DNA from: Bdellovibrionales bacterium
GTDB taxonomy: Bacteria; Bdellovibrionota; Bdellovibrionia; Bdellovibrionales; UBA1609
Assembly: GCA_020628165.1 (NCBI GenBank)
Contig: JAHDFM010000001.1
Location: 93,826 to 157,825, forward strand
Direction of reading: 5' to 3'
DNA: 64,000 bases
Under the pieces are notes generated by a model. That model worked only from the letters and a program-made list of their open reading frames with translations. It was not told the DNA's origin and made no database searches. Positions 21 through 62,556 of this stretch are shown here, piece after piece. Position 1 is the first letter of the stretch. The number at the start of each line of letters is the position of its first letter. Both the position numbers and the translations under genes were made by a program.

Positions 21-98
21 GTCATCCAAGGCGAAGCGAAGGACCTATCGCAAATTTAAGAATCATGAGTTTTGCTCCTTCGCTTCGCTCATAATGAC
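21..98. repeat. Palindromic dispersed repeat, two inverted arms
   Basis: The left arm (21-51) reads GTCATCC, then GCGAAGCGAAGGACC. The right arm (74-98) is its reverse complement in outline (TCCTTCGCTTCGCTC, then ATGAC). About 22 bases separate the arms. Related arms occur at 9751-9783, 21080-21124, 48931-48951 and 62431-62556. Bases 1-20 look like a more degenerate copy. This is a small non-coding repeat family; the mechanism of spread is unknown. Confidence 0.7.
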
Positions 99-9750: not shown

Positions 9751-9783
9751 GTCATCCTGAGCGAAGCTAAGGACCTATCGCAT
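9751..9783. repeat. Dispersed repeat arm
   Basis: The clearest single arm of the family in this window: GTCATCCTGAGCGAAGC followed by TAAGGACCTATCGCA. Degenerate partial copies (GTGAGCGAAGTG, CCTGAGCAC) lie just upstream in 9690-9750. Confidence 0.75.
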
Positions 9784-20413: not shown

Positions 20414-21958
20414 GTGGAACCTGTAAAGATTGAAAGAAAACTCATTCAATTTGTCGATCACTTATCAGATTTAAGTGATGTCGATTCAATATTTCATTAT
20501 TTAGATGAACAACTGGGTAAGGTGCCAGGGGTTTCAGACACGATCTTATGCATTTCGCCCATCCGTAACCGTAATGTTATTTATTTTAGAGAAAAAAACA
20601 AAGTGCTAGTGAAACCAGCGCAACGACTTTGGTTGCAAAACACACTAATAAGAAAAGATAACATTGAAGACAGTCAGTTTCTAGCTGACCACCTCAGGCG
20701 CCCCGTTGGACAGATCATCGCCTTTCCAATAAAGATGGTGCAGCTTGAAAAGCTCAGCCAAACAACGGTGCCAGCCACCTTATTCATTGAAAACTCAGTC
20801 ACTGATAGCGAGAAAGACTTGCTAATTAAAAACTTAATTAACTACATTCAGCCCATCCAGTTTTCGTTGGAAAAAGCGTTTATACAGCTTTATTTAGATA
20901 ATTCAGCCATTGAGTGGCAGTCGACCTTTGATGGCCTACGAGACCCTATTTGTATTTTTGATCTCGATAAAAATATTTTACGTTCAAATCACGCCTTCAA
21001 AGCCTTAGTTAACGGAACAGAAGTCAGCGATTTACTACTGAAAAGCAACGACCCCAAGGTTCAGTCAGAGTCAGGTAGAGGCATCATCCTAAGCGAAGCG
21101 AAAGGACTATCGCTACACGCGAACACTCTCACCCAAAGGCGAATCCACTTCAAAGACAAAGAGTTCGAAATATACTCATACCCCATAGTGGTCAAAGACA
21201 AAGAAGCCCCAACAACTTTCGTGAACTATTACATCGATATCACCAAAAAACAGTCTCTAAAAAGTAAAATGTTACAAGGGGAAAAACTCGCCATTATAGG
21301 TCAGCTCGCTGGCAACATTTCACATGAACTTAACAACCCATTAACGGGCATTAAGTCATTAGCAGACCTCATTGCAAGAGACCCCAATTGTGATCGCCAA
21401 ACCAAAAACGATTTGATGGAAATTTCAGTAGCTACTGATCGCTGTCAAAGAATCATCGATAATCTAATGATGTTCTCTAATGATAAGATTCGACCCGAAA
21501 GAAAAGTGGTGAATTTAAATGAACAAATAAAAATTGCGATCACCCTATCGAAGTCATTACTTGGTTCTGTGGAGCTACACCAGCTTTACACAGAGGATGA
21601 CACCAGTGTCTTCGTGATTCCTGAACTGTTAGTACAAGTGATTTACAACTTAATTCAGAATGCCTGTCAGGCCACACAAAAACAAAGCTCAGTTATTAAA
21701 CTAGAAACTCGATTGAACAAAAACATGGTTGAACTACGGGTGATTGATAACGGTACTGGCATAGAGGCTTCAACTCTCGCTAACATATTTAAACCTTTTT
21801 TTACTACTAAAAAAATTGGCGAAGGAACTGGGTTAGGCTTAAGTATGAGTTTGGGTGTGATTAAAAGCTTCAACGGTCGTATCGATGTGAACAGCGAGGT
21901 TGGTCAAGGTAGCGAGTTTGTTGTGACCTTGCCAAAAGCAATGGACTCAATCTCATGA
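20414..21958 (+). CDS. Soluble sensor histidine kinase with GAF-like and PAS domains
   Basis: The 514-residue product starts at GTG and lacks membrane segments. Residues 1-155 look GAF-like and about 165-280 PAS-like. The phosphoacceptor motif NISHELNNPLTG places His at 304. The ATP-binding domain has N, G1 and G2 boxes (LIQNACQAT, DNGTGI, GEGTGLGLS). Residues 223-237 (21080-21124) are encoded by a copy of the dispersed intergenic repeat, inserted in frame inside the PAS region. It overlaps the receiver gene by four bases. Confidence 0.9.
   Translation: MEPVKIERKLIQFVDHLSDLSDVDSIFHYLDEQLGKVPGVSDTILCISPIRNRNVIYFREKNKVLVKPAQRLWLQNTLIRKDNIEDSQFLADHLRRPVGQIIAFPIKMVQLEKLSQTTVPATLFIENSVTDSEKDLLIKNLINYIQPIQFSLEKAFIQLYLDNSAIEWQSTFDGLRDPICIFDLDKNILRSNHAFKALVNGTEVSDLLLKSNDPKVQSESGRGIILSEAKGLSLHANTLTQRRIHFKDKEFEIYSYPIVVKDKEAPTTFVNYYIDITKKQSLKSKMLQGEKLAIIGQLAGNISHELNNPLTGIKSLADLIARDPNCDRQTKNDLMEISVATDRCQRIIDNLMMFSNDKIRPERKVVNLNEQIKIAITLSKSLLGSVELHQLYTEDDTSVFVIPELLVQVIYNLIQNACQATQKQSSVIKLETRLNKNMVELRVIDNGTGIEASTLANIFKPFFTTKKIGEGTGLGLSMSLGVIKSFNGRIDVNSEVGQGSEFVVTLPKAMDSIS
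21080..21124. repeat. Dispersed repeat arm embedded in the sensor kinase
   Basis: CATCCTAAGCGAAGCGAAAG followed by GACTATCGCTACAC aligns with the intergenic arms at 21-51 and 9751-9783. It is translated as GIILSEAKGLSLHAN in the kinase frame without a stop. Confidence 0.75.
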
Positions 21959-22320
21959 AAAAAATTTTGATCATCGACGATGAATCGATCATTCGCAGAG
22001 CCTTGCAGAGGGCTTTTAACTCTAAAGGGTACGAAACCTTTGTGGCTGCGGATGCATTTATGGGTGAAGGCTTATGGAAAGAACAAGATCCCGACCTAGT
22101 GATCATTGATGTTATAATGCCCAATAAAACAGGTCCAGAACTGATCGCTGAAATGAAAAGTTACATAGCTGATAAAAATTTCAAAATTGTTTTAATTTCA
22201 GCCTATTCAGGTGACTACGATACCAATTTGGCAAAATATAAGAATATCGATTTATTTATAAAAAAGCCATTTGTTAATATTTTTAAAGTGGTGGAACAGA
22301 TGGAAGGGCTGTTGGTTTGA
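21955..22320 (+). CDS. Single-domain response regulator (receiver only)
   Basis: The 121-residue CheY-like receiver has the acidic pair DDE near residue 8, phosphoacceptor Asp52 (VIIDVIMP), a conserved Ser/Thr region (VLISAYSG) and KKPF Lys near residue 103. It has no output domain. It is coupled to the kinase gene (ATGA overlap), so it is probably its partner and passes the signal through protein contact or a phosphorelay. Confidence 0.92.
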   Translation: MKKILIIDDESIIRRALQRAFNSKGYETFVAADAFMGEGLWKEQDPDLVIIDVIMPNKTGPELIAEMKSYIADKNFKIVLISAYSGDYDTNLAKYKNIDLFIKKPFVNIFKVVEQMEGLLV

Positions 22321-48739: not shown

Positions 48740-49045
48740 GTAGATTGTATCGGTTCGGATCGTTTTTTTTTAAACTGGTGTTCTGTCCAGAAGGACTGAA
48801 TTTTATAACTTTTTATACCATTAAGAATTCATCAAGTTTTGAGATGAAAACCAGTTTTTTTTTAAAAGAGCGACCTCTTAGACTTTGATATTGCACCTAC
48901 TAGAGGTGACTAAAAAGCAAAACTTAAGTCGAGCCCTTCGCTCAGGATGACTTTTCTTATTTTGAAAGTGTTTGTAAATAGTAATGGCAAAACAATTGAC
49001 CCTAGAGAATTCCTTTTGTTTAATTGCTCAAACTTAGGAAATAAT
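48740..49045. other. 306-base intergenic region with a dispersed repeat arm
   Basis: The region lies between the divergent TonB-like and AHSA1 genes. It holds one repeat arm (48931-48951, reverse orientation) and an AGGAAA ribosome site before 49046. The frame upstream of 49046 begins inside the repeat and is not supported. No clear promoter is seen by eye. Confidence 0.5.
48931..48951. repeat. Dispersed repeat arm, reverse orientation
   Basis: GAGCCCTTCGCTCAGGATGAC is the reverse complement of the arm at 9751, in shortened form. Confidence 0.7.
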
Positions 49046-62430: not shown

Positions 62431-62556
62431 AATCATCCAGAGGGAAGCAAAGGACCTCAAGAAACAATAACTAACTCAACGAACAGTAAGTAACATTAAA
62501 TTAAAAAATATCATTCACTATTTTGTGCCAACATCCTTCGCATCGCACAGGATGAT
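62431..62556. repeat. Dispersed repeat, decayed inverted pair
   Basis: Left arm ATCATCCAGAGGGAAGCAAA then GGACC (62432-62456) and right arm CATCCTTCGCATCGCACAGG then ATGAT (62532-62556) face each other across about 75 bases, like the element at 21-98 but more diverged. Confidence 0.55.

Follow-up and report, generated by a model that had tools for sequence, protein, structure and literature searches.

A palindromic repeat arm probably captured in frame within the PAS loop of a Bdellovibrionales sensor histidine kinase

Within the 64,000-nucleotide stretch of Bdellovibrionales DNA analysed here (the window), a sensor histidine kinase gene has very probably captured a palindromic repeat in frame, in a manner resembling Rickettsia palindromic elements (RPEs), and presumably tolerates it in a PAS loop whose cysteine input has probably decayed. 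According to the mechanism we propose, one arm of a mobile or formerly mobile repeat, with a net contribution of 30 bp, would have entered the gene in frame at the variable PAS segment, which follows the early strands of the domain and precedes its long final ones. In the orientation and frame of the presumed insertion the arm contains no stops (V-I-L-S-E-A-K-D-L-S), and a multiple of three would have been added. Owing to these two properties the kinase core could have been kept, and the loop could have tolerated the insert, which would remain as a disordered stretch at the surface. The mobility of the repeat, the tolerance of the insert and any effect on sensing are here what we infer from the comparisons described below.

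The repeat family and its arm in the kinase gene

The genome that contains the window (G000) comprises 3.19 Mb, is 99% complete and holds about 134 recognisable arms of the repeat. The arm sequence is GTCATCCTGAGCG(A/C)AGCGAAGGACCTA, and most copies start with (C/T)GTCAT. For the 18-base core with at most three mismatches 100 matches were found in this genome, while the reversed control gave 0 in forward and 3 in reverse orientation. A calibrated sequence model returned 139 matches at E ≤ 10. Head-to-head dimers hold 62 of the 134 arms, with a commonest outer span of 77–78 bp. Folding of two dimers provided strong hairpins (z-scores of -6.7 and -14.3), and folding of a lone arm gave no strong hairpin (-3.7 kcal/mol, z-score of -0.55).

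A simple ORF call placed 66 of the 134 arms in co-directional, 41 in convergent and 20 in divergent intergenic regions, with 5 undetermined and 2 overlapping an ORF. One of the latter two is the kinase copy; the other lies 22 bases from a predicted ORF start that is possibly misplaced. The kinase copy is therefore the sole one found deep in a gene of this genome (about 1 of 134 arms). The copies at 21–52 and 9751–9782, to which the original prediction had related the kinase segment, are real and intergenic. A weak arm remnant (8.5 bits, minus strand) is additionally seen between genes at window positions 48918–48951. The genome carries two ORFs of Y1-type transposases (C33:49544–49828 and C53:9377–9613), one of which is intact while the other contains three stops; the repeat is near neither of these two Y1_Tnp ORFs. 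A comparison with Rfam gave no credible match to the repeat, the hairpin yielding only sub-threshold, microRNA-like chance matches. Neither the repeat string nor its peptide was found in the literature searched, which was covered in part.

The kinase ORF matches HATPase_c (1.9e-23) and HisKA (5.9e-13) and, weakly, PAS at residues 168–200. Its H, N, G1, F and G2 motifs are all intact, and the column of His304 is invariant in the orthologue alignment. The response regulator encoded directly downstream is the probable partner of the kinase (Table 1).

Table 1. Positions of the repeat arms, the kinase gene and its neighbour in the window
Feature	Position	Strand	Remarks
Intergenic repeat copy, first arm of head-to-head dimer	21..52	+	
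Second arm of the dimer begun at 21..52	65..98	-	
Single-arm intergenic copy	9751..9782	+	
Sensor histidine kinase, 514 aa	20414..21958	+	N-terminal sensor region, PAS, HisKA, HATPase_c
Fast-evolving PAS loop, residues 196-247	20999..21154	+	Cx(n)CxGCP in orthologues, no Cys here
Repeat arm within kinase gene, read as IILSEAKGLSL	21083..21114	+	Arm identity, matrix score, sequence model
Inferred net 30-bp insertion, residues 224-233 (IILSEAKGLS)	21083..21112	+	May be shifted by about one codon in either direction
Codon of presumed phospho-accepting His304	21323..21325	+	H-box ISHELNNPLTG
Single-domain response regulator	21955..22320	+	Response_reg 2.5e-19; overlaps kinase stop
Diverged intergenic arm	62432..62463	+	
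Diverged intergenic arm, orientation opposite to 62432	62523..62556	-	

Positions 21080–21124 lie in frame in the kinase ORF on the plus strand and are translated as GIILSEAKGLSLHAN, and 67 residues separate the repeat peptide from the downstream His304, both as first noted. The arm within this segment shares 78% identity with the copy at 21–52. A position-weight matrix was built from 99 other copies of the kinase's own genome, with the kinase site excluded. It assigned 29.3 bits to the kinase site, compared to 18.8–53.5 bits for known copies and to a maximum of 13.1 bits in random sequence (40 Markov-1 sequences of 128 kb, about 5 Mb). The calibrated sequence model, which is independent of the matrix, detected the site in the whole genome at E = 0.006, the E-values of this model being rough. 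Matrix score and model match together indicate that the similarity of the kinase site to the repeat is real.

By chance or convergence the kinase codons could merely resemble the repeat. This would agree with the matrix score of the site, which ranks among the weaker 13% of copies, and with a model E-value that is just 0.006 genome-wide. It is however at odds with the distance between the site and the random maximum, with an independent gap at the protein level that falls on the same residues as the repeat, and with the entry of the repeat into genes of relatives (see below for both), such that we regard it as very unlikely. Since the kinase copy is diverged, its insertion was presumably not recent. 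Next to it, neither a second arm nor a flanking unit of the repeat rose above shuffled sequence, and only one arm is recognisable.

Orthologues and the surrounding PAS loop

The kinase is present in three genomes of the same genus, in two of them at full length (46–47% identity) and in the third as fragments. Further, more distant orthologues were found across Bdellovibrionales. With 46–47% identity even the nearest orthologues are too distant to show an empty site. In the alignment, 10 residues are absent at the insert point in all three congeners, and the distant orthologues are also without the insert, as had been anticipated. Conservation of the peptide among orthologues was looked for, and it occurs in none of those aligned. 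The segment between the conserved Asn192 and SYPI258 comprises 57 residues in 15 of 30 orthologues, the three congeners included, versus 67 residues here. When a deletion of 10 residues was slid along this segment, the best fits to the congeners were obtained at residues 223–232, 225–234 and 224–233, i.e. at the repeat peptide. From the segment lengths and the best deletion placement we obtain a net gain of 10 residues (30 bp). The in-frame insert of the original prediction is thus retained, while its length of about 15 residues is not.

A further explanation reverses the direction of the transfer: the segment would be an ancient, selected element of the PAS domain, and the intergenic repeats would have been seeded from it or resemble it. 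The open reading frame agrees with such an origin, and nothing else in its favour was found. The segment is however missing from every orthologous segment compared, and the congener G003 has about 30 repeat copies while its kinase is without the segment. An ancient PAS element is thus the most improbable of the explanations considered.

In-frame capture, the preferred reading, places the insert in a loop that evolves fast. Leaving the insert aside, the loop shares 5–12% identity with the congeners, which share 40–48% among themselves; for the rest of the protein the corresponding values are 50% and 63%. With so little identity in the surrounding loop, part of the difference between 67 and 57 residues could stem from other changes. 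The Cx(n)CxGCP motif of the loop is kept by 25 of 31 sequences, whereas the loop of the window kinase is without cysteine. Judged from their sequence pattern, the loop cysteines may have a metal or redox role. Given the loss of the motif from the insert-bearing loop, the domain's input through these cysteines has probably been lost or altered. Kinases of Bdellovibrionales without C-x(n)-CxGCP in the PAS loop mostly have shortened loops (the motif is seen e.g. in L011, L012 and L069).

The structure of the window kinase was predicted using AlphaFold together with 19 relatives. The pLDDT was below 50 at residues 209–235, flanked by well-predicted PAS strands; the only other such stretches were residues 357–359 and the C-terminus. 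Low pLDDT and divergence of the loop are together in keeping with an insert in a loop that is exposed and unconstrained. One may alternatively consider that the insertion was adaptive, the repeat peptide having created a novel regulatory loop and thereby altered the signal sensed by the kinase. The insert and the loss of Cx(n)CxGCP share one loop, and kinase and response regulator are both intact, in agreement with such a role. Considering however that the insert is predicted to be disordered and that drift in a functionless loop accounts for the data equally well, we consider an adaptive insertion unlikely, though less so than the two explanations above.

The repeat in genes of related genomes

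According to the sequence model the congeners G001 and G002 carry a few arms each. A near-absence of the repeat from the congeners, suggested by a search with an 18-mer at one mismatch, was overturned by this model owing to the arms of G003. Throughout the phylum 12 of 291 genomes contain the exact 23-mer (reversed control: none), and some small genomes belonging to other families have many copies of it, among them G061, the metagenome-assembled genome of Deltaproteobacteria bacterium GWA2_38_16.

We considered a copy as deep when it lies at least 30 residues inside an ORF of at least 200 aa. Deep copies amount to 9 of 39 in G061, 5 of 34 in G070 and 4 of 14 in G089, versus 1 of 102 in the window genome. 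Pooling the small-genome relatives (18 of 87) gives a Fisher p of about 4e-6 for this contrast; the intragenic fractions are estimates, because two mismatches were allowed in the relatives versus three in the window genome and because some of the ORFs lack a known domain. The nine deep copies of G061 are located at L294, L302, L311, L319, L321, L325, L331, L333 and L312, and the genes that carry such copies there include CarB, LipB, DapB, LysA, ParB and an Fe-S oxidoreductase.

In the relatives the repeat is read as peptides in two sense frames (VILSEAKDL, HPERSEGS) and in two antisense frames (RSFASLRMT, ILRFAQDD). Compared to solved homologues, LipB has 9 extra residues at HPERSEGSL and CarB has 7 at RSFASLR. 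A PcrA/UvrD helicase of G062 (L305:483–2867) has about 60 extra residues, and these consist of several repeat-like peptides (ILRFAQDD, VIPVKAGIQIPAFAGMT, HCERSEAISI). LysA (L325) and CoaX (L291) are hardly or not at all longer than solved homologues, such that the repeat may in some cases have taken the place of loop sequence. Our tally of clear insertions leaves out these two as well as DapB (L333). In G062 the repeat core also forms a direct array with a period of 31 bases at a contig end (C21:7–148), and similar short arrays occur at C56 and C51.

It is well conceivable, although we propose it tentatively, that this repeat of the Bdellovibrionota, like the Rickettsia elements, inserts repeatedly into conserved genes in all of its open frames, mainly in small-genome lineages, and that the kinase represents a rare capture in a larger-genome lineage which accompanied the loss of the cysteine loop. 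The present case extends to Bdellovibrionota the insertion of intergenic palindromes into proteins, for which Rickettsia and some species rich in REPs have so far been the main examples. A usable contrast exists between one genome, in which about 134 arms include a single capture, and small-genome relatives, in which a fifth of the copies are in genes; it allows one to ask whether weak selection in small genomes admits repeats into proteins. In the kinase itself one could measure how signalling responds to a captured repeat.

Comparison with known palindromic repeats

CGTC-tagged REPs (Di Nocera et al. 2013, PMC3733652) resemble the window repeat in several respects: GTC at the start usually follows C or T, head-to-head dimers are numerous, the copies are mostly intergenic with some intragenic ones, and no linked transposase was found. 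The REP monomer is however defined by a stem of 8–9 bp, a loop of 4–5 nt and a CCA-like tail (PMC3733652), whereas the single arm of the window repeat is without such a stem and loop and a strong hairpin arises only in the head-to-head dimer. With tag and behaviour shared but the monomer hairpin absent, we do not file the repeat as a CGTC REP. A GTAG REP mobilised by a RAYT (REPIN) was also considered and rejected; the repeat flanks neither Y1_Tnp ORF of the window genome.

The elements QMITE1 and QMITE2 of Coxiella are MITEs with in-frame insertions in ORFs (PMC5896051). Like the window repeat they are small inverted-repeat elements that are at times found in frame in ORFs. They span 150–400 bp and have direct repeats, while the window repeat occurs as dimers of about 78 bp or arms of about 30 bp.

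Intragenic REPs have been described to include RPE-4 and RPE-6 as CGTC-tagged repeats, as well as inserts in DNA-repair genes (PMC3733652); the window repeat and RPE-4/RPE-6, as described there, have the CGTC/TGTC start in common. The likeness to RPEs put forward by the original prediction applies to behaviour, because in small-genome relatives conserved genes contain the same repeat in frame. It applies less well to the window genome, in which the capture is a single event, and it does not extend to the hairpin of CGTC REPs. The two systems, likened here by description, furthermore belong to different phyla, and intragenic copies make up about 1% in the window genome. In the kinase and in the relatives alike the copies lie in frame in conserved genes and are absent from orthologues. 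As for RPE-1, RPE-4 and RPE-6, a palindromic repeat thus has in-frame copies in conserved genes, with several reading frames tolerated.
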